Shown: positions 3,427 through 21,565 of the stretch, piece by piece
Layout of the letters: every line of letters starts with the position of its first letter
How positions within the stretch are numbered: position 1 is the first letter of the stretch
Source of the DNA: a virus
Direction: 5' to 3' (one strand)
Virus record (IMG/VR): IMGVR_UViG_3300042691_006756
Coordinates: 1 to 28,158 of that record
Length of the DNA stretch: 28,158 nucleotides
Made by a program: the position numbers and the translations under genes
Notes under the pieces: generated by a model
Told to the model about the DNA's origin: nothing
What the model saw: only the letters and a program-made list of their open reading frames with translations
Databases searched by the model: none

Positions 3427-4062
3427 ATGGCATATACTCGTGGTACGTCGACCAACATTATCGTTGGTGCTGCTGCTCTTTTCGTAGCAGATACAACCCT
3501 TACTCCAGGTACACTGGAGCCGTTCGTAAGTTCTGAGTCTTTTAAGGATACCCTTTCTGATGATGCAGCTTATACAAACGTAGGTTATACCATGAACGGT
3601 CTTGAATTGCAGTTCCAACCAGACTTCGGTGAAGTACAGGTTGACCAGATTCTTGACGTTGCTAAGTTGTTCAAACAAGGTATGCAGGTAAATCTTGCTA
3701 CCGCTTTTGCTGAAGCTACACTTGAGAACCTTCTATTGGCTCTTGCTTTTAGCTCAGATGAACTATCAGGAACAAAATCACAATCAAACGGACAAACTCT
3801 TAATCTCTCCGCAGGAGACATTGGAGAATGCCCAGTTGAGCGTGGTATTGTTGCTGTAGGACCTGGAACTGGAGACTGCGAAGACTCCGCATATGTTGAG
3901 CGTGTTTATTCAGCATACCGTGCACTCTCAATTGAGAATGTAACTGTATCTGCAAAGCGTGACGAAGCATCAATGTTCGAGGTTTCGTTCCGTCTTCTTC
4001 CAGAAGACACATCTGGCTCCTATGGTAAGATCGTAGATCGTACTTGGACTCCAGCATCATAA
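3427..4062 (+). CDS. Major tail (tube) protein
   Basis: 211 residues forming the repeated subunit of the tail tube. Support comes from the position between tail terminator and tail assembly chaperones, from the length, and from an N-terminus typical of actinophage tube proteins (TRGTSTNIIVGAAALFVADT). A long beta-rich body follows (FQPDFGEVQVDQILDVAKLF, then GIVAVGPGTGDCEDSAYVERVYSAYRALSIENVTVSAKRDE), ending in a FEVSFRLLPE strand. The ribosome site AGAGGTGA lies about five bases before the ATG. The gene has its own extended -10 promoter and is closed by a strong hairpin terminator, so it is a self-contained, high-output unit. Its codons end in C or G more often than those of its neighbours (28 G/C in its first 60 bases against 15 in the first 60 of the next gene), as expected for the most abundant tail product. 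Confidence 0.85.
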   Translation: MAYTRGTSTNIIVGAAALFVADTTLTPGTLEPFVSSESFKDTLSDDAAYTNVGYTMNGLELQFQPDFGEVQVDQILDVAKLFKQGMQVNLATAFAEATLENLLLALAFSSDELSGTKSQSNGQTLNLSAGDIGECPVERGIVAVGPGTGDCEDSAYVERVYSAYRALSIENVTVSAKRDEASMFEVSFRLLPEDTSGSYGKIVDRTWTPAS

Positions 4063-4077: not shown

Positions 4078-4085
4078 AATAACAG

Positions 4086-4116
4086 GCCCATCCCTTCGGG
4101 GGTGGGCTTTGTTGTT
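4086..4116 (+). terminator. Rho-independent terminator with UUCG tetraloop
   Basis: GCCCATCCC (4086-4094) pairs with GGGGTGGGC (4099-4107): nine pairs including one T-G wobble, closed by the very stable C(UUCG)G tetraloop and followed by TTTGTTGTT. It lies 23 bases after the major tail protein stop. The T-tract is interrupted by G, so some read-through into the tail assembly chaperone genes is likely. Its tail overlaps the -10 region of the next gene. Confidence 0.9.
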
Positions 4117-4126
4117 ATGATAGAAT
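4113..4126 (+). promoter_or_regulatory. Promoter for a probably leaderless long chaperone mRNA
   Basis: Two overlapping extended -10 candidates are present: TGTTATGAT (4113-4121) and TGATAGAAT (4118-4126). The second ends seven bases before the ATG at 4134, the spacing expected for transcription starting at the start codon. No Shine-Dalgarno lies between, which fits a leaderless message of the type common in Actinobacteria. No clear -35 is seen, because the terminator stem occupies that region. Confidence 0.5.
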
Positions 4127-4133
4127 AGATAAA

Positions 4134-4853
4134 ATGGCAACACAAATATATAGTTATGATTATATTTATTTAATTGATGGCACTCAGATAGAAATATCTC
4201 CATTAAAAATTAAATATCTTAGACGGTTTATGGAATTTTTTAATAAAATAAAAGATGCCGAAAATGAAATAGAAAGCTTGTCTTGGCTTTCTTTGTGTGG
4301 TATTGTTGCTTGCCAACAATTTTATCCAGAAATAAAAACAATAGAAGATTTAGAGGAAATGATTGATTTACCAAATCTATATAAACTGGTAAATACTGCG
4401 GGTACATTAAAAATAGAACAAGACTCTGATAAAACATTAAAAGAACAGGCCAGTAACAAAGAATCTTCTGGACAAACATGGGATGATCTAGATTTAGCAA
4501 GACTAGAAGCAGAATTATTTTTGCTTGGTATTTGGAAAGATTATGAAGAATTAGAGAAAAATATATCAATGCCAGAACTACTTGCTACCCTTTCATCTTT
4601 AAGAGATTTAGATTATCAAGAAAAGAAATTTTTAGCAGCAATTCAGGGTGTTGATTTAGATAAAGAGTCTGGTAAAGAGCGTGGTCAAAAAGAATGGGAA
4701 GACCTAAAGGCCAGGGTATTCAGTAAAGGACAAGCTACAGACAGTAATGACGTACTGGCTTTACAAGGACAAAATGCTAAAAAAGCAGGATTTGGAATTG
4801 GAATGGGGCTTGAATATGAAGATGCAAGAGACCCATCCCTTATGAAAAATTAG
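4134..4853 (+). CDS. Tail assembly chaperone, long form (G+T-like, in-frame)
   Basis: 239 residues. Residues 1 to about 97 are paralogous to the next gene (shared LIDGT, PLKI..LR.FM, QQ..P, LEE.IDLP..Y). After a polar linker (about 97-115), residues 116-175 (WDDLDLARLEAELFLLGIW, SMPELLATL, KKFLAAIQGVDLD) match the downstream half of actinophage tail assembly chaperones, normally reached by a programmed frameshift. Here both halves are fused in one reading frame. Such proteins bind the tape measure protein and recruit tail tube subunits; the long form is needed in small amounts. The gene has no Shine-Dalgarno, a poor AT-rich codon set and a terminator in front, consistent with low expression. 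The C-terminal ~60 residues are polar and unrecognised. Confidence 0.75.
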   Translation: MATQIYSYDYIYLIDGTQIEISPLKIKYLRRFMEFFNKIKDAENEIESLSWLSLCGIVACQQFYPEIKTIEDLEEMIDLPNLYKLVNTAGTLKIEQDSDKTLKEQASNKESSGQTWDDLDLARLEAELFLLGIWKDYEELEKNISMPELLATLSSLRDLDYQEKKFLAAIQGVDLDKESGKERGQKEWEDLKARVFSKGQATDSNDVLALQGQNAKKAGFGIGMGLEYEDARDPSLMKN

Positions 4854-4862
4854 CCTATTCAT

Positions 4863-4870
4863 GCTATAAT
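4863..4870 (+). promoter_or_regulatory. Extended -10 promoter of the short chaperone gene
   Basis: TGCTATAAT begins at 4862-4863 (TG at 4862-4863, perfect TATAAT at 4865-4870) in the 44-base gap before the gene at 4898. No good -35 is seen. Six bases after the -10 comes ACTTATATATAAGGAGG, the same leader, at the same spacing, as in front of the ssDNA-binding protein gene (25368). Confidence 0.65.
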
Positions 4871-4876
4871 TAACAT

Positions 4877-4893
4877 ACTTATATATAAGGAGG
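4877..4893 (+). promoter_or_regulatory. Palindromic leader and ribosome binding site of the short chaperone
   Basis: A 12-base perfect palindrome CTTATATATAAG (4878-4889) runs straight into the Shine-Dalgarno AAGGAGG (4887-4893), five bases before the ATG at 4898. The A at 4877 is the likely transcription start. The palindrome may be a mRNA 5' end stabiliser or a protein site. The same arrangement occurs at 25368-25383. Confidence 0.55.
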
Positions 4894-4897
4894 ATCA

Positions 4898-5224
4898 ATG
4901 GCTACAACCGTGCATGAGGAAAAAACAATTACCCTTATTGACGGAACCAAAATCAAGGTAAGACCACTAAAAATCTCACTTCTTCGTCAATTCATGAAGA
5001 AGTTTGAAGGTCTTAGCGCAGTTCAAAATGACAATGATAAGTCTATGACACTGCTAATGGAATGTGTACAGATTGCAATGCAACAGTACAAGCCAGATTT
5101 GGGGGATGACACAGATAAGCTTGAGGAAGTTATTGACTTGCCAACAGTTTATCAAATTATAGAAGCAGCTTCTGGAATTAATCTTTCAGACTCAGCACTT
5201 CTAGCTCTGGCATCAGAGCAATAA
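4898..5224 (+). CDS. Tail assembly chaperone, short form (G-like)
   Basis: 108 residues, paralogous over their whole length to the N-terminal domain of the gene at 4134: both start MAT, both have LIDGT.I...PLKI..LR.FM..F near residues 13-36 and an LEE.IDLP..Y segment further on. This is the abundant chaperone that coats the tape measure protein during tail assembly. It lies directly upstream of the tape measure gene, the normal place for this family. It ends at 5224 with no open frame beyond, so it cannot be extended by frameshifting. It has its own extended -10 promoter, a strong AAGGAGG, and more C-ending codons than its long paralogue (24 against 15 G/C in the first 60 bases), all suggesting high output. 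Confidence 0.75.
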   Translation: MATTVHEEKTITLIDGTKIKVRPLKISLLRQFMKKFEGLSAVQNDNDKSMTLLMECVQIAMQQYKPDLGDDTDKLEEVIDLPTVYQIIEAASGINLSDSALLALASEQ

Positions 5225-5248: not shown

Positions 5249-8200
5249 ATGGCAGGAGATGTAAATAGCAATATTTTTATAAATATTGATACAGCTCAAG
5301 CCATGGCACAACTTCGTGCCCTTGAGAAAGAATTAACTGCCCTTAACCGTGCCCTTGTTGTTGGAACAAAGACTGCAGCACAAGCTCAGTCAAAATACGC
5401 ACAATCTTTATTACACAATGTAAACGCAACTGGTCAGTGGACTGCATCTGTTGGCAGAATGAAAACTGCTACAGAACAATTTTCTTCAGCACTTGATAGA
5501 TCTAAGCTTTCATTAAAAGAGTACTTCCGTTATGGTATGGCATCTACCAGAACATTTGGAAGAATGTTTGGTAATGAATTTGACACAGTAGGAAAGTTAG
5601 TTGAAAAACGTGTCAAAGTATTACAGCAGCAATACGTTCAGCTAGGCCGTGATGCACAGGGGGCAATGAATGCCCTTAAATTTACACCTAAAGCTCTAAA
5701 CTATAGAGATGTTACAACGCAGCTTATGCTTGCTACTCAGCGCCAGCAAATATTTAACAAGCTTCTTGATGATGGTGCAACTAAACTTTTAAATTTTGGT
5801 AAAAATACACAGTGGGCTGGTCGCCAGCTTATGGTTGGTTTTACTATTCCATTAATGCTTTTTGGATCTCAAGCAGTAAAAACCTTTAAAGAAATTGAAA
5901 CTCAGGTAATTAGGTTTAAAAAAGTATATGGTGATATTTTTACAGATCAGGGTGCAACAGATCAAGCATTAAAAAATATTCGTGATCTTGCTGATGAATA
6001 CACTAAATATGGTCTTAAGGTAGCAGATACTATTGGAATGGCTGCAGATGCAGCAGCAGCAGGTTTTAGCGGTAAAGGGTTAGAAAATTTAGTAGAACAA
6101 ACAAACAAGCTTGCAGTTCTTGGTGGAGTTACACAAGAAAAAGCACTTGAAACTACGATTGCACTAAGAAACGCATTTCAGATTGACGAAAGCAAGTTGT
6201 CTGGAACAATTGATTTTCTAAACGCAGTTGAAAACCAAACAGTTGTTGCTCTTGAAGATTTAACAGAAGCTATTCCACGTGTTGCTCCAGTAGTTGAGCA
6301 GCTAGGTGGAGATGTTAAAGACCTTGCATTCTTTATGGCAGCTATGCAAGAAGGTGGAATTAGTGCTGCACAAGGTGCCAACGCACTCAAGTCTGGCCTT
6401 GCATCTTTGATTAACCCAAGCAAAAAAGCTTCTGCAAGTGCAGCAGAACTTGGAATTAACTTAAAGGGTATTGTAGAAGAAAATGCAGGAAATCTAAGAA
6501 ATATTATAATGGCTTTTGCTAAATCACTACAGCCATTAACAGACCTTCAAAAATCAAGAATCATTGAGCAAATATTTGGTAAGTATCAGTTTGCAAGAAT
6601 TTCAGCACTACTAAACAACGTGACTAAAGAGGGATCCCAGGCTGCTCGTGTGCTACAACTTGCCAATGCATCAGTAGAGGAATTGGCAATATTATCACAG
6701 CGAGAACTAAAGGTACAAGCAGATTCACCTATGAATAAATTAGCGGGTGCAGTAGAAAGACTAAAGAAAGCAATCGCACCTATTGGTCAGCTATTTGCTG
6801 AAGTCCTCACGCCCGTAATTGAATATATTGGTAAAATGGCAGAAAACTTTAACAAGCTTCCAGAAGGATTTAAAAAAGCAGTTGCATTAATTTTGGGTAT
6901 TGTTGGCGGTATTGGTCCAATATTTTTGATGACATTTGGTCTTGTTGCTAATGCTTTTGCTAACGGACTTAAGGGTGTAAATCTACTTCGTAAGGGATAT
7001 CAACAGCTTGCCTACGGATCTTCCGATGCTGCTCTAAAAACACAATACCTAACTAATGAAGAGTTAGAAAATATTTCTGTAACTAACTCATTATATTCAA
7101 AACACGAACAGCTTTCTGCTGCTTATAGACTAGAGCAACAAGCTCTTGCATCTTTAATAGCAACATACAATCAAGCAAATGTTGCAATGGGTGGTTTTGC
7201 TGCAAAGAATCCAGGACTATTCGTTCCTGGAAAAGGACCAGCACCAAAGAAATTTGCAGACGGTACTACATCAGTTCCTGGACCAAGGGGTGCTGGAGAT
7301 ATTGTTCCATCAATGCTCTCACCAGGAGAGGCTGTTATTCCAGCAGAACAATCTAAAAAATATGCAGGATTTATTAATCAAATTATTCAAGATAAAGTTC
7401 CAGGGTTTTTTGGTGGAAGAAATCCTTTTATAAGAACTTCCTTCCCTGGACAGTTTGATGATTTAGTCTTTGGTGCAGCAAGAAATGTTTCTACTGGTGG
7501 CTCTGGGTTACGAGTAGGATCTCAAATAGCTGGAAGACGTGGACTAGAACGTATTTTCATAGACGATGCTGGCGATGGACTAGCAAGAGTTACTGTTGGA
7601 AAATCATCTATATTTATTAAAAAAACAGAAGTAGATAAACTAAAGAGAGAGCTTGAAGCAAATCAAGATTGGTTAGATGCAAGGGGCGGTGTAAAAAAGA
7701 AGGGTGCAGCAGTAGATACTGCAGCTAAACTAGAAAGTATTATAAGAACACGCCTAGCTGGAGAAAAGGTTGTAACTGCTAAAAGAATTGCTGGTAAATT
7801 ACAAAAAGCTGATGTTGAAAAGAAAAGACCAGTTAAAAAAGAAGTTAAATCATTAAGGACAAAATATAAAAATAGTGCAGCTTACCGTGCTATTCAAGAA
7901 GAGTTTGAACAAGAAATAAATATACTTAAAGCAATATCTGGAGCAAAAAATCCATATGGTATTACTCCTTTAGACATAACAACAACTGCTAAAGCAAGCA
8001 GACGTGGTTCAGAGTCGTTAGAAGTAGGGGCTGGAGCATTAAGTCATAGACTTCCAGCAGCTTCAAAAATGGGAGATTATGAAAGAAATGCCCCATGGAA
8101 TGTCTTTGAAGAGCAGTCTCTTTTAAATAAATATTTTCAAGATGTTGCAAAACAATCTTCTCTTGGTGGAAAGCATGTTTGGAATAGAAATGATGCTGCT

Positions 8201-11200
8201 AAATTAAGAGCAGAAATATTAAAAAAGCCATTACAAGAAAGATCTTCTGTAGAAAGGGTTGCTGATGCGTTACTTGACTATCGTCTTAACTACAGCAATT
8301 ATTATGATAAATTTGGATCAAGAGCAAATCAATATAACTTACTAAAAGATGCTGGACTATCTCGTGATGAAATAGCAATGCTTCCAAGATTTGCAGATCC
8401 TATGAGATTAGCAAATGGAATTGTTTCTGTACCTGGACCTAAAGGTGCTGGAGACATTCAACCAGCAATGCTTGCTCCAGGTGAAGCGGTAATTCCAGCA
8501 AGACAAAGTGAAAAATATCGTGGATTACTTAGTTCTATAGTTTCTGATAGTGTTCCTGGATATCAAGGATCAAATTTACCGCCACCACCACCAGGAACTG
8601 ATCCTTGGGGAGATCCGACACTAAGTAGAAGAGAACAAATGCGTAGAGAGTCTATGCAGTTTGTAGGAGATCCTAATAGCAGGGCAGACAGAATTATAAA
8701 TAGGGTAGTAGATAGGTTTGCAAGAACAAAAATTGGAACTTCAATTAATGAAGCAAGTATTGATAGAAACCTAAGAGAAGAACGTGCAGCAGCAAGAGCT
8801 GCGGCTAGACCGATTCCAATGCCAGTGTTTTCAGACTTGAAAGATTCGGTAGAAAAAAACACTGCAGCAGTACAAGGTGATACAGACGCTACAAAATCTT
8901 CTACTCAAACAGCAAAACAAGCAGCACAAGAACAAAGAAAGCTTGCAAGCACAACTGGCATTCGTGGATATATGCTTGGATATGGAAATGTACCAGATGT
9001 AGACCCAGAGTCAGGCAGAAAACTAAGTTACGCAGAAAAAAGAAATTATAGACAGTTCCAAAGAATGGAACGTACAAACAAATTAATGGGTCCTTCAATG
9101 GGCCTCAGCATGGCTGGCTCTATGGCAATGATGTATGGAATGAGCAAACCAGAAAGTGCCTTGGGACAAAACATGAGTCTTATTATGGCGCTTACAGTAT
9201 TTGCTGGACTATTACCAATGATTAATTCACCATTAAAAATGATGATTGCTGGTGTTATTGGATTAACTGCATTATTTAAAATGCAATCAGCACAAATAAA
9301 GAAGTCTATTATTGATGGGCAAAAACAAGCTAAGTCTATGATGATGACTACAGATAATCTTGAAGAGCTTGGAAAAATAACTGGCACTGTATCAATAGCA
9401 CAAGAAGAAGAAGCAAAGCGCAGAGCAAGAACAACAGAAATTGTTCCAGTAAGCATGGATTTTGGTAAAAATATAATAAGTAACTCTGATTATGGAAAGC
9501 AACTTAAAGCAGCATTTGATCAAACTGTGGCTACTCTTGGTGTAGATGCAGGAGCTAGATCTTTAGCTGGTCAACTTGCTACAGCAGTTTCTCAAGGAGT
9601 TTTGACTGCTGTTCAAGCAGAATCTATTGCAGTTGCTATTACAAGAGATCTAAAAGATGCAAGGCTTGAGCTAGATGTTCGTAGTAGATTAACAGAGCTT
9701 ATTGGTCCAAATGGACAAAATATTTTAGAAAAGCCGTTGCAAGTACAGCTTGATATTATTGCTAGCAACAGAGAATTGCAGCGTGGCGCTTTTGCAAACT
9801 TACAAAATGTTATTGGACAACAAAGAAGTGGATTTGCTGGAATAGGTGGCAGAGAGGCTGGACAGCTTGCAATGGGTGCAGTTCCAGCAGCAGGAGCTGC
9901 AGCATATGGTGTTGGTGCACTCAATGTTGCAATGGCTGGAGAAAAGGCTGGAAAGGTTGGTGCTTTAGGTAAAATTGCAATGGGTGCTCGTGCTCTGAAT
10001 ATTGCATCTAAAGGAACAGCTGTTGTTCCAATTGCAGGATGGATATCTGCAACTCTTGGAACACTTATCTTCGGCGGTATAGAACTAGGAATAAGAAAAT
10101 TCCAACAGGGTCAAGAAAAGAAAGCAATTGGAAAAGCAGCAGGATTATTCCAAGGAGTAGTTTCTGAGAACATGAAAGCATCTCAGCAGGCTCTTGATGC
10201 TCTTAATGTTGAAATTGGAATTGCTATTAAAAATCTTGAAGCTAAAAAGAAAGCCGCTAAAACAGCAAAAGAACGTGCGGATATAGAACAAAGAATTGCA
10301 GATCTTGAAGAACAAAGAGCTTCTGGATCAGCACAAATTAGAAAATCTCAAGGTGACATTTTAAGAGATGTCGGAACTCAGTTTGAACAAATAGATAAAA
10401 GAACATTCTGGGAAACGTTTATTCCTGGTGGCACAGAACGTGGAGCTCTACGTGAAAAGTTTATGGAGTCTTTCCAGGTTGGACTACAAGAAAAATTTAA
10501 AGGAAATGCTGCTGCTACAGCAGATTTAACAACTCTGACAAGTTTGCTAGAAGGTAAATTTGGTAGAGGTGAAGGTGATGCAATTACCCTTAAGATTCAA
10601 ACACTTATAGATTCAGATGTTCTAACACCAAGAGAAGCAGCTATGGTTGTTCAAAATCTTTCATCCGATACTAAGAAAGCAGAAAAGCAACTAACAGCAC
10701 TTGTTGATGTTCAAGGAACTGAAGGATTGCAACGTCTTGCAACAATTATGACATTTATTCCAAGTGAAAAAAATAGAAAACAATTATTCCTTGATATTCA
10801 AAGAAAAGATAAAGAAGAGGCAGACGCTACACTTGCTGGTATAGAAGAGCTCATTAAAATTCCTAAGTATATAGGAATAGTCTTAAATATGGAAACTAAT
10901 CCAGAAGATTATAAAGATATGCTAAAGCTTGGAAAAGAAATTGGACTACTGAAGAAATTAATACCAGATGGACAAATAAGTTTAGATGTATTAACTAAGG
11001 TTAAAGAAGACTTAACTAAGTCTGGACAGGCAGTTCCAACTACATTACAAAATGCTATTGATCAATGGGATGTTATTTCTAAACTTCCTAAAGAGTTAAG
11101 ATTCCAAGCAATATTTACTCTAACAACATTAAAGACATCAGATTCATTTGAAGCTGTTGTGAATAGAGAGTTAGAGGCAGCTTATCAAAAAGCAACCAGT

Positions 11201-14038
11201 GATAAATCTATTATTCCTCAATATGCAGAAAGATATTCTAGATGGTTGCAAACAAATGCTAAAGAAGGCTCTAATATTCGTAAGGCTGCAGAAGCAAAAG
11301 CACTTACTGAAATATTTGGTTATGATCCAACAGATACATCAAATGTTCCAGCAGCAGGACCCACTGGAACTACTGAGGGCGGAGCTAAAGGATCATGGCT
11401 ACAAGATCTTGGACAAAGATTAAAACTTCTTAAAGAAAGTAGTTTTGATGCACTATCTCCACTTAAGGAACTAAGAAAGTTTTATGGAGAAGGCGCTGGT
11501 AAAACAGTAAATCCAGTACTACAAGATCAAAAAGGTGCTCTTGATGCTATAAGAAAAGAAGCAAAAGATGCTGGAATTGTTCTTAGTGAAGAATTTATGA
11601 GTATTATTGAAGGTTTTAGTGCAGACGAATTCAAGAATTTTGCAAAAGACTTTTTGATTCTTGGTAAGGGTGGTAGGGTAACAGGGCTAAAAGATGACTT
11701 TAAGATCATCAATGCTGGACTAAGAAGTTTAGCTGCTGCTGAGTTAATTAATAAAATAGATACTGAAAATGCTGCAATACAGCGACAAATTGATGCATAC
11801 AAGATATTGGTTAAACAGGGCTACAACCGAATGGAAATTGAAAGAATTCTGCAGGATGAAACAATGGTTGCAATGATTGCAGATCAAGGATTCTTGTCAC
11901 TTTCAATTAGTGAAAGAACTGAGCTAAATAAAAAGATAAATGAAACAATAAGATTGAAAAAAGACGAAGCTCTAGTAGGACTAGATACACAAATTGATGC
12001 ATTAGAAAATCAAGCAAAGGCTTATGATATTTTAAAGGGTAAGCAGATAGATCAAGAAACTATTCTAGAAATATTAAAAAATCAGGCATATGTTATGGCT
12101 GTTGTTACTGGTCAGGGTATTGATGAAATTATTGCTAAAACTGAAAAATATCTAGGACTACTCAAAAAGCAAGCTACACAGCAGCAAACAATGCAGGAAA
12201 AAGCAAGAGAAGCAATTACGTTTAATAAAGAGGTTCTTGATCTTCAAGCAGCACAAGCACAAAATGAATTTGATAGAAACACATTTAATCTTAGATTAAA
12301 CATGAAGATAGCTCAAAAAGACATTGATGCTATTAATAAAAAAATCCAGGAAGAACAAGATAAGATTGATGCTATTAATCTTGAGGTTAAATATAAGTTT
12401 GATATTCCAATGGCAGATCTGCAAGAAGAAATTAATGACATGCAAAGAACTGTTGAAGAAGTATATAATAGACCACTTTCTGCTCTATCTGATAGATCTA
12501 CAATTTTATCTAACGATCTTGAACTAATAGATCGTGCTGCTGATAAAATTAATGAAAAGTATGATGCTCAGGCTAAAGCTCTTGAGCAGATTTCTCAAAT
12601 TAATCAGGATATTCTTAATCAACAAAGAGGACAGCTTGATCTTGCTAGCGCTTTGAGCCAAGGTGATATTGCTTCTGCAGCAAAGGCTGCACAAGAAATG
12701 CGATCTCAGGCTGCTAGCGCTGCGTCACAACAATCTGGTAATTTAATAAATGCTGCAAGACAACAGGAACTAAATGCCTTAGTATCTTCATCTGGAATGA
12801 CAAGAAAGCAAATCGAAGAAGAACAATTCCAGATTAGTCAAAGATCATTTACTCTTGAGCAAGCACGAAAGAAAGTGCAAGCAGATATTCTTGTTCTTGA
12901 AGATAGACTTTATAATATGCAAGAAGCAAGAGAGGGGCTTGTTCTTAAAATTCGTGGGCATGAAAAAGCTATTGATGATTATAGAACTAAAGATTTAGCA
13001 AATGCTCAAAAGCGCTTAGATGATTTACAGGAACAGGTAGATAAGCACCAAGCAATTCTAGATGCAAAGATCGATGCAATAGAAAAAGAAAGACTATCCT
13101 GGGAAGCAACAAGCCTTGCTCTTGATGCTTATGAATTAGCCCTAAAAGAAATTAATTTGGGTGAACTTGCAACAATGAAAACTATTGTTGATAATATTGT
13201 TAAGGCATTTGAAAGTATTAAGGGTAAGATTAAAAGCGGAATTAATATTAGTGGAGATACTGATGTTGCTGCAACAGATGATAATGGCGATGGCGTTGTT
13301 GATGGCAACGATGCTTCTGTTATAGCTAATGCAGCAGCAGAGGCAACTGATGCAGCCGATGCAGCAACGGATGCTTCAGCATTAGCTGCCGAAGCAGCAG
13401 ACGCAGCAACAGCAGCAATAGATGAACTTAATGAATATCTAAATTCAGATTCTGTAGCAGCAACAGATGCTGCCATAACTGCCTTAGAAAAAGATGCAAA
13501 TGATTTACTTGCAGATGTTAAAGCAGCTAATGCAAAAATGAGAGCAAAAATAATTAAGAAATATGAAAAATCTGGTAAGAAAGTTCCGAATAGTCTTTTA
13601 AAGAGAGGCGGATCTGGAAGCGGACAATATGGTGTGGTAGCAATGGCTAGTGGTGGAATGGTTAAACCAAAATATTTTGCTTCTGGAGATTTTGTTCGTG
13701 GAACAGATACGGTTCCAGCAATGCTTACACCTGGAGAATTTGTTGTAAATAGAAAGGCTACATCTGCATTCCTTCCAGAATTAGAAGCAATGAATAATAT
13801 GAGAATGCCAGCATTTTCTAAATCACTATCTGCACCAACATACGGCGGTACTGGAAATGTTATATCTATGCCAGTAAGAGCAGCAGCTGGAGATAACACA
13901 AATAACACCAACAACGTGTATAATTATAGTGTAGGAATCAATGTAGGTGGAACAAATGCCTCTCCAGATAATATTGCTAGAGCAGTTATGAATGAGATTA
14001 AATATATTGATTCACAGAGAATTAGGGGACAAAGATAA
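5249..14038 (+). CDS. Tail tape measure protein (TP901 type)
   Basis: 2929 residues; sets tail length and is ejected into the host with the DNA. Residues about 237-392 match the TP901/PhageMin tape measure core (DQALKNIRDLADEY, GLKVADTIGMAADAAAAGF, FFMAAMQEGGISAAQGANALKSGL). Hydrophobic, possibly membrane-inserting stretches lie near 543-575, 1308-1348 and 1571-1615. A motif of the type VPAML.PGE occurs three times (about 669-698, 1053-1083, 2809-2834). The first two copies enclose an unrecognised, charged domain of about 330 residues. A Pro run follows the second copy. Long helical or coiled-coil regions span about 1620-1720 and 2308-2628. A calcium-loop motif lies at 2677-2688, followed by an Ala/Asp-rich helix. 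Shine-Dalgarno AAGGAGT is about nine bases before the ATG. The stop overlaps the next start. By the rough 0.15 nm per residue rule the tail could approach 440 nm. Confidence 0.93.
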   Translation: MAGDVNSNIFINIDTAQAMAQLRALEKELTALNRALVVGTKTAAQAQSKYAQSLLHNVNATGQWTASVGRMKTATEQFSSALDRSKLSLKEYFRYGMASTRTFGRMFGNEFDTVGKLVEKRVKVLQQQYVQLGRDAQGAMNALKFTPKALNYRDVTTQLMLATQRQQIFNKLLDDGATKLLNFGKNTQWAGRQLMVGFTIPLMLFGSQAVKTFKEIETQVIRFKKVYGDIFTDQGATDQALKNIRDLADEYTKYGLKVADTIGMAADAAAAGFSGKGLENLVEQTNKLAVLGGVTQEKALETTIALRNAFQIDESKLSGTIDFLNAVENQTVVALEDLTEAIPRVAPVVEQLGGDVKDLAFFMAAMQEGGISAAQGANALKSGLASLINPSKKASASAAELGINLKGIVEENAGNLRNIIMAFAKSLQPLTDLQKSRIIEQIFGKYQFARISALLNNVTKEGSQAARVLQLANASVEELAILSQRELKVQADSPMNKLAGAVERLKKAIAPIGQLFAEVLTPVIEYIGKMAENFNKLPEGFKKAVALILGIVGGIGPIFLMTFGLVANAFANGLKGVNLLRKGYQQLAYGSSDAALKTQYLTNEELENISVTNSLYSKHEQLSAAYRLEQQALASLIATYNQANVAMGGFAAKNPGLFVPGKGPAPKKFADGTTSVPGPRGAGDIVPSMLSPGEAVIPAEQSKKYAGFINQIIQDKVPGFFGGRNPFIRTSFPGQFDDLVFGAARNVSTGGSGLRVGSQIAGRRGLERIFIDDAGDGLARVTVGKSSIFIKKTEVDKLKRELEANQDWLDARGGVKKKGAAVDTAAKLESIIRTRLAGEKVVTAKRIAGKLQKADVEKKRPVKKEVKSLRTKYKNSAAYRAIQEEFEQEINILKAISGAKNPYGITPLDITTTAKASRRGSESLEVGAGALSHRLPAASKMGDYERNAPWNVFEEQSLLNKYFQDVAKQSSLGGKHVWNRNDAAKLRAEILKKPLQERSSVERVADALLDYRLNYSNYYDKFGSRANQYNLLKDAGLSRDEIAMLPRFADPMRLANGIVSVPGPKGAGDIQPAMLAPGEAVIPARQSEKYRGLLSSIVSDSVPGYQGSNLPPPPPGTDPWGDPTLSRREQMRRESMQFVGDPNSRADRIINRVVDRFARTKIGTSINEASIDRNLREERAAARAAARPIPMPVFSDLKDSVEKNTAAVQGDTDATKSSTQTAKQAAQEQRKLASTTGIRGYMLGYGNVPDVDPESGRKLSYAEKRNYRQFQRMERTNKLMGPSMGLSMAGSMAMMYGMSKPESALGQNMSLIMALTVFAGLLPMINSPLKMMIAGVIGLTALFKMQSAQIKKSIIDGQKQAKSMMMTTDNLEELGKITGTVSIAQEEEAKRRARTTEIVPVSMDFGKNIISNSDYGKQLKAAFDQTVATLGVDAGARSLAGQLATAVSQGVLTAVQAESIAVAITRDLKDARLELDVRSRLTELIGPNGQNILEKPLQVQLDIIASNRELQRGAFANLQNVIGQQRSGFAGIGGREAGQLAMGAVPAAGAAAYGVGALNVAMAGEKAGKVGALGKIAMGARALNIASKGTAVVPIAGWISATLGTLIFGGIELGIRKFQQGQEKKAIGKAAGLFQGVVSENMKASQQALDALNVEIGIAIKNLEAKKKAAKTAKERADIEQRIADLEEQRASGSAQIRKSQGDILRDVGTQFEQIDKRTFWETFIPGGTERGALREKFMESFQVGLQEKFKGNAAATADLTTLTSLLEGKFGRGEGDAITLKIQTLIDSDVLTPREAAMVVQNLSSDTKKAEKQLTALVDVQGTEGLQRLATIMTFIPSEKNRKQLFLDIQRKDKEEADATLAGIEELIKIPKYIGIVLNMETNPEDYKDMLKLGKEIGLLKKLIPDGQISLDVLTKVKEDLTKSGQAVPTTLQNAIDQWDVISKLPKELRFQAIFTLTTLKTSDSFEAVVNRELEAAYQKATSDKSIIPQYAERYSRWLQTNAKEGSNIRKAAEAKALTEIFGYDPTDTSNVPAAGPTGTTEGGAKGSWLQDLGQRLKLLKESSFDALSPLKELRKFYGEGAGKTVNPVLQDQKGALDAIRKEAKDAGIVLSEEFMSIIEGFSADEFKNFAKDFLILGKGGRVTGLKDDFKIINAGLRSLAAAELINKIDTENAAIQRQIDAYKILVKQGYNRMEIERILQDETMVAMIADQGFLSLSISERTELNKKINETIRLKKDEALVGLDTQIDALENQAKAYDILKGKQIDQETILEILKNQAYVMAVVTGQGIDEIIAKTEKYLGLLKKQATQQQTMQEKAREAITFNKEVLDLQAAQAQNEFDRNTFNLRLNMKIAQKDIDAINKKIQEEQDKIDAINLEVKYKFDIPMADLQEEINDMQRTVEEVYNRPLSALSDRSTILSNDLELIDRAADKINEKYDAQAKALEQISQINQDILNQQRGQLDLASALSQGDIASAAKAAQEMRSQAASAASQQSGNLINAARQQELNALVSSSGMTRKQIEEEQFQISQRSFTLEQARKKVQADILVLEDRLYNMQEAREGLVLKIRGHEKAIDDYRTKDLANAQKRLDDLQEQVDKHQAILDAKIDAIEKERLSWEATSLALDAYELALKEINLGELATMKTIVDNIVKAFESIKGKIKSGINISGDTDVAATDDNGDGVVDGNDASVIANAAAEATDAADAATDASALAAEAADAATAAIDELNEYLNSDSVAATDAAITALEKDANDLLADVKAANAKMRAKIIKKYEKSGKKVPNSLLKRGGSGSGQYGVVAMASGGMVKPKYFASGDFVRGTDTVPAMLTPGEFVVNRKATSAFLPELEAMNNMRMPAFSKSLSAPTYGGTGNVISMPVRAAAGDNTNNTNNVYNYSVGINVGGTNASPDNIARAVMNEIKYIDSQRIRGQR

Positions 14039-21552: not shown

Positions 21553-21565
21553 GGAGATATAATGG
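21545..21565 (+). repeat. Tandem 10-base repeat spanning the start codon
   Basis: GATATAATGG occurs twice with one base between (21545-21554 and 21556-21565). The second copy contains the real start ATG (21562). The first contains an out-of-frame ATG (21551) that opens a 3-codon ORF, Met-Glu-Ile-stop, whose TAA overlaps the real ATG. Confidence 0.7.

Follow-up and report, generated by a model that had tools for sequence, protein, structure and literature searches.

In phage lambda, the tail assembly chaperones gpG and gpGT are made by -1 programmed frameshifting (PMC5009743). This G/GT frameshift is described as having been conserved widely in long-tailed phages, T4 being an exception, and in the lambda model G binds the tape measure protein and T recruits the tube protein (PMC5009743). 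It ranks among the most strongly conserved cases of recoding known from long-tailed phages, and the usual explanation is that the two products are needed in a fixed ratio. In lambda, this G:GT ratio is about 30:1.

The Stanwilliamsviridae of Streptomyces (Karimac, Yaboi, Faust, Patelgo and Circinus) have homologues of both chaperone halves described below, with the same neighbours and, as here, an upstream terminator and an extended -10 element. Theirs, however, is a single gene with T in the -1 frame and a slip site of C CCA AAT or C CCG GAA. In a further described system the frameshift is apparently absent and two adjacent ORFs are found instead; its description reports no G paralogue alongside a fused GT. 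For the chaperones of T4-like phages, Vladimirov et al. (2022) reportedly proposed a pair that arises other than by frameshifting. This proposal is the likeness to our case; the phages themselves are unrelated and contractile-tailed. The open-access literature that was searched yielded no paralogue pair of fused GT and G replacing the chaperone frameshift; matches on 'separate genes' concerned lysis genes.

Here we analysed a stretch of viral DNA of 28,158 nucleotides (IMG/VR record IMGVR_UViG_3300042691_006756, positions 1 to 28,158; hereafter the window). We consider it quite probable that two paralogous genes in it make the equivalents of lambda gpG and gpGT, that duplication has replaced the -1 frameshift and that the ratio is set by expression. 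As in lambda, there is a short G and a long G+T form between the major tail protein (MTP) and tape measure genes, and an excess of G is expected. The differences are that each of the two genes has a promoter and start signals of its own, that GT lies in one frame and that the short gene has no slip site, so that the long form is not made by programmed frameshifting as in lambda. A large lineage has given up the frameshift, with frameshifting relatives on both sides of it in the tree. This makes the purpose of frameshifting, i.e. ratio, co-translation or linkage, testable by comparison. The chaperone ratio is linked here to leadered versus leaderless initiation.

The locus and its two proteins

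All features described here lie on the plus strand and are given in window positions. The long gene (4134-4853) encodes 239 amino acids in a single continuous frame, a fused G+T form, and the short gene (4898-5224) encodes a G-only paralogue of 108 amino acids; both open reading frames are present exactly where the preliminary description had placed them. Upstream lies the MTP gene (3427-4062), which matches phrog_2175 (E = 3e-33) and, weakly, the major tail protein family phrog_885. The name of phrog_2175, 'protein with Ig domain', is also the one that the MTP bears in Faust and Yaboi, and the gene sits where the MTP is annotated in Streptomyces phages. Downstream follows the tape measure gene (5249-14038; 2929 amino acids; Pfam PhageMin_Tail, E = 1e-29), whose protein carries a GPRGAGDIVPSMLSPGEAVIP-like motif at least three times, and also GPKGAGDIQPAMLAPGEAVIP and RGTDTVPAMLTPGEFVVNR. 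Both chaperone genes are placed directly between these two neighbours, in the order seen in the annotated Streptomyces homologues, and the placement is therefore of the lambda G/GT type. In one relative (L125), a methyltransferase-like ORF (motif DVLELGCGSGNDTLFL) is inserted in the gap of 781 nt between the long and short genes, which indicates that the two genes tolerate separation.

The G-like half of the long protein (4134-4457) matches phrog_10504 over residues 1-109 (E = 3.5e-18), and the T-like half (4485-4850) matches phrog_10474 (E = 3.5e-15). The short protein likewise matches phrog_10504 (E = 3.5e-22). Thus the G part is shared by both genes and the T extension, phrog_10474, belongs to the long gene alone. 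The N-terminal parts of the two proteins are 38% identical over 111 columns (E = 5e-21), and together with the common family match this bears out the paralogy of the two G-like halves that had been read from short shared motifs. PHROGs keeps phrog_10504 and phrog_10474 as two separate families, both listed with unknown function; they correspond to G and T of a tail assembly chaperone, two parts that a -1 frameshift joins in Stanwilliamsviridae. In this way two unannotated families gain functions.

Structure prediction of the long protein gave a mean pLDDT of about 90 across residues 11-90. In the case of the short protein (pLDDT 64), a Foldseek search of 350,542 chains returned HK97 gp13 (2OB9) as top match, with an E-value of 2.2 and a TM score of 0.42; this is weak evidence for a chaperone fold and counts against our preferred explanation. 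Neither Foldseek with the long-protein model nor profile searches of solved structures gave a meaningful match. The homologies and gene neighbours point to a chaperone function of the two proteins.

Relatives and the lost slip site

A tblastn search of 50,697 phage records matched 127 of them, all Streptomyces phages and each in a single place. Among the matches listed, the long query aligned in two pieces, across two annotated genes where such annotation exists. In the nine Streptomyces records examined closely, the T part lies behind G in the -1 frame, and for Yaboi and Patelgo the annotation names the homologue a tail assembly chaperone and gives it a joined long form. Taken together, this frame arrangement and annotation identify the homologues as chaperones using the ordinary frameshift. 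The T-like half of our long protein aligns with the -1-frame T ORF of both the Streptomyces and the freshwater relatives. As a side observation on annotation, several Streptomyces phage records list the T part as a small gene of its own whose start is arbitrary, though it is the end of a frameshifted chaperone (L163, 2881-3153; L164, 3091-3150; L165, 2890-3159; L166, 2923-3144); in Faust it is a 60-nt CDS. The two-gene form of GT plus G was found in none of the isolates among the 50,697 records.

Viral metagenome contigs were then scanned with several queries and the loci classified in a frame-aware manner. The first scans yielded the GT plus G pair in 119 distinct viral sequences and a later scan added 66 loci, so the split that the preliminary description had suggested looking for in related phages is indeed there. 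Altogether two architectures were seen, a fused GT followed by G in 226 loci and G followed by a -1-frame T in 207, counts which include some contigs represented twice. The few loci outside these architectures were truncated contigs, ending within the region, or in a single case (L237) had a broken G. Among the more than 400 loci, no intermediate was found with both copies, be it a frameshifted GT plus G, or with a fused GT alone, and no relative was confirmed in cellular genomes. As the number of sequences is not a number of independent events, a thinned set of 71 loci was used where indicated. By our own reading of the sample sets, the contigs are mainly freshwater.

The frameshifting relatives fall into three groups. 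Two are the Streptomyces Stanwilliamsviridae and a freshwater clade; the third, here called 'near', was found by a search starting from the most divergent short protein. This near group comprises 13 loci (L376, L379-382, L384, L387, L389-391, L393, L396 and L408), each with one frameshifted gene; its G shares 58-65% identity with the short G of the window. Directly 5' of the chaperone gene of L376 lies an HNH-endonuclease-like fragment (SLGGTDEIDNLQILCSSCNKKK).

The GT plus G phages are a large, uncultured group whose two-gene sequences all come from metagenome assemblies. This provenance could suggest that the arrangement was created by faulty assembly or by a recent accident confined to a single genome. 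We regard that as hardly conceivable, given that the arrangement recurs in 119 distinct sequences from many samples, that both copies are under purifying selection and that the regulatory signals are conserved; contig ends and assembly errors were excluded by inspection only.

The slip site of the frameshifting relatives is C CCA AAT in Loccivirinae and the less canonical C CCG GAA in Boydwoodruffvirinae, where it stands in place of C CCA AAT in L163, L166, L167, L168, L171 and their relatives; in the near group it is G GGA AAC. A recognisable site is found in nearly all of the 155 distinct frameshift-clade genes, and the distinct sequences lacking an XXXYYYZ heptamer all carry GAC CCG GAA (19/19). 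Past the G stop, the -1 frame is open for at least 173 nt in all 155.

In the short gene of the window, the corresponding position (5189-5197) reads GAC TCA GCA, where alignment and codon comparison place GAC CCA AAN, GAC CCG GAA or GGA AAC in the relatives. C CCA AAN is kept in none of the 119 distinct short genes. Their open -1 extension measures 14 nt at the median, compared with 329 nt for the frameshifting relatives, and in the window itself neither the -1 nor the +1 frame offers a useful extension, both closing within tens of bases of the stop. The earlier statement that frameshifting is impossible in the short gene is therefore upheld, both by the closed frames and by the absence of the slip site across the family.

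Origin of the duplication

Phylogenetic trees were calculated for the G proteins, the T parts and the tape measure. In the G tree, the long copies form one clade (100/98), the short copies another (95/86), and the short copies join the near group (99/95); the long copy branches outside short plus near. In the tape-measure tree, rooted by midpoint, all duplicated phages form one clade (SH-aLRT 87). Its sister is the near group, which frameshifts (95), and the remaining frameshifting phages lie beyond both. Because frameshifting is found on both sides of the duplicated lineage, its replacement on a single occasion by duplication and fusion is the most economical reading, and most likely this is what happened in this lineage.

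In detail, the ancestor would have carried a single G gene and reached its T extension through a -1 frameshift, as the three related groups do. The G-T region would have been duplicated once in the ancestor of the duplicated lineage; of the two copies, the upstream one would have turned into one uninterrupted GT frame and the downstream one would have kept G and lost the slip site and T. The end states of both copies are seen in the sequences, and the order of events would follow from them. The initial suggestion that gene duplication replaced recoding fits these data, as homology, duplication and the absent frameshift are conserved over a large clade.

The position of the long copy in the G tree could also be read as a sign of foreign origin, i.e. 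a GT segment recombined in from a related phage, after which the resident frameshifted gene lost its T. The placement of the long copies outside short plus near in the free tree, with support of 100/98, would agree with this. Nevertheless, grouping long with short is not rejected (AU p = 0.35). Moreover, the long G copies have longer branches and higher dN/dS, so that faster evolution can account for where they fall. The T half of the long gene, in turn, groups with the T of the near group rather than with that of a foreign lineage. Of six near representatives, four have T sequences placed among those of the duplicated phages, and the remaining two are close by. We therefore consider acquisition from another phage unlikely, and a tandem duplication is the origin of the long copy that we favour over a partial contribution from elsewhere.

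Both copies are under purifying selection, with median dN/dS values of 0.13 for the long G half, 0.08 for the long T half and 0.08 for the short gene.

Expression signals and the proposed roles of the two copies

The short gene is preceded by an extended -10 promoter, TGCTATAAT (4862-4870), and by the Shine-Dalgarno sequence AAGGAGG (4887-4893), so that both signals named in the preliminary description are in place. Among distinct relatives, 118 of 119 carry the consensus TGNTATAAT about 25 nt from the start, and the Shine-Dalgarno dG is -11.1 in the window with a family median of -10.2. The G genes of the frameshift clades show the same Shine-Dalgarno strength as the short genes, and an extended -10 in 145/154, mostly TATAAT or TACAAT. 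Within 60 nt of the tape measure start no extended -10 was found; the short gene is probably co-transcribed with the tape measure gene.

Codon adaptation, calculated with the major tail proteins of the same loci as reference, was 0.607 for the short gene, 0.458 for the long G half and 0.474 for the long T half. In 69 of 71 loci the short gene outscored the long G half (p = 4e-13). The corresponding values for the freshwater frameshift clade were 0.584 for G versus 0.489 for T. By these scores, the long G half has a weak-expression codon usage like that of T, and the short gene is of the abundant-gene type. The unfavourable codons first noticed in the long gene of the window hold across the family, as low codon adaptation and low GC3.

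In the case of the long gene, the terminator proposed upstream was located between MTP and the long gene at 4084-4109 (11-pair stem with 7 GC pairs and a T-rich tail). Similar hairpins precede 66 of 71 thinned long genes and 98 of 99 frameshift-clade G genes, compared with 8 of 40 shuffled sequences. An extended -10, TGATAGAAT, follows at 4118-4126, with its hexamer ending 7 nt 5' of the ATG and a predicted +1 at about 4133. TATAAT as -10 occurs in 15/71 long versus 70/71 short promoters (Fisher p = 6e-24). The -10 elements of both genes presumably act as promoters. A transcript from the long promoter would, however, also carry the short gene, which counts against our preferred explanation.

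Across the family, the long-gene -10, TGNTANNNT, lies 6-9 nt from the ATG in 106 of 118 distinct relatives and 14-15 nt from it in the other 12; in shuffled upstream sequences, 1.5% have a -10 at 6-9 nt. With the usual spacing, a distance of 6-9 nt would put the transcription start 0-3 nt from the ATG, i.e. it would give a leaderless mRNA. The start codon is ATG in 160/160 relatives, and it is TTG in 138 of 194 frameshift-clade G genes. The Shine-Dalgarno dG is -1.3 in the window, and the family median of -2.9 is negligible. From these features the long-gene mRNA is predicted to be leaderless and without a Shine-Dalgarno sequence. Leaderless genes of the actinobacterial type begin transcription at an ATG or GTG start codon and lack a Shine-Dalgarno sequence; judging by the promoter distance, the invariant ATG and the Shine-Dalgarno median, the long gene may be of this type. 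The comparison with Actinobacteria is drawn because the nearest isolates infect Streptomyces. In mycobacteria, leaderless mRNAs require an ATG or GTG start and fail with TTG, and leaderless translation is as efficient as leadered (PMC4633059). Consequently, the absent leader alone need not give a low yield.

A more conventional explanation is that both genes are ordinarily leadered, a close -10 not implying a leaderless mRNA, and that the ratio comes from promoter or mRNA differences alone. The 12 relatives with the -10 at 14-15 nt speak for it, as 8 of them have a GGGG/AGGA-like stretch in the leader. Against it stand the 106 relatives at 6-9 nt, where the leader would measure 0-3 nt and none has a Shine-Dalgarno-like stretch, and a start codon that is ATG without exception. 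On balance this explanation seems improbable to us. The 'poor start' first ascribed to the long gene needs to be qualified accordingly: the start signals are weak, but the gene has its own extended -10 and a predicted transcription start at the ATG. What looked like a poor start is a conserved arrangement, which adds to the first reading.

Returning to two separately expressed paralogues, the long gene would be transcribed behind the MTP terminator from a mostly non-consensus extended -10 near the ATG, giving a leaderless message without Shine-Dalgarno. The short gene, with its ancestral-type -10, strong Shine-Dalgarno and high-expression codons, would be read along with the tape measure gene. 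From these differences in promoter, Shine-Dalgarno and codon usage, much G and little GT are predicted. Abundant G would then coat the tape measure and the little GT would recruit the tail tube protein; binding of the tape measure by G and recruitment of the tube protein by T are proposed by analogy with lambda. The idea that separate expression signals stand in for recoding is backed by the conserved promoters, the Shine-Dalgarno differences and the codon usage.

Since the copies have diverged to 38% identity and form separate clades, the short gene could instead have taken on a new role, leaving all chaperone function to the long gene, perhaps via a dnaX-like, early-terminating frameshift. 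We judge this very unlikely. Of the two copies, it is the short one that stands nearest to the near group's frameshifted G, and it has retained the type of promoter, the Shine-Dalgarno and the codon usage seen in frameshifted G genes. In addition, no conserved slippery heptamer was found at the G/T junction of the long gene, as a dnaX-like frameshift would need.

A more tentative extension of the two-chaperone explanation, which we regard as possible though doubtful, is that duplication freed the chaperones to specialise. GT would act as an initiator with its own timing and leaderless translation, its G half would not have to copolymerise in the way the abundant G does, and tail initiation and tape-measure coating would be controlled independently. 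If true, this would be a natural escape from a recoding event that ranks among the most conserved in viruses, with the frameshifting sister group still present.

Elsewhere in the window, at 21562, the ATG of a further gene lies only 9 nt from an extended -10 (TGATATAAT), but a GGAG stretch is present as well; this is possibly another near-leaderless gene.
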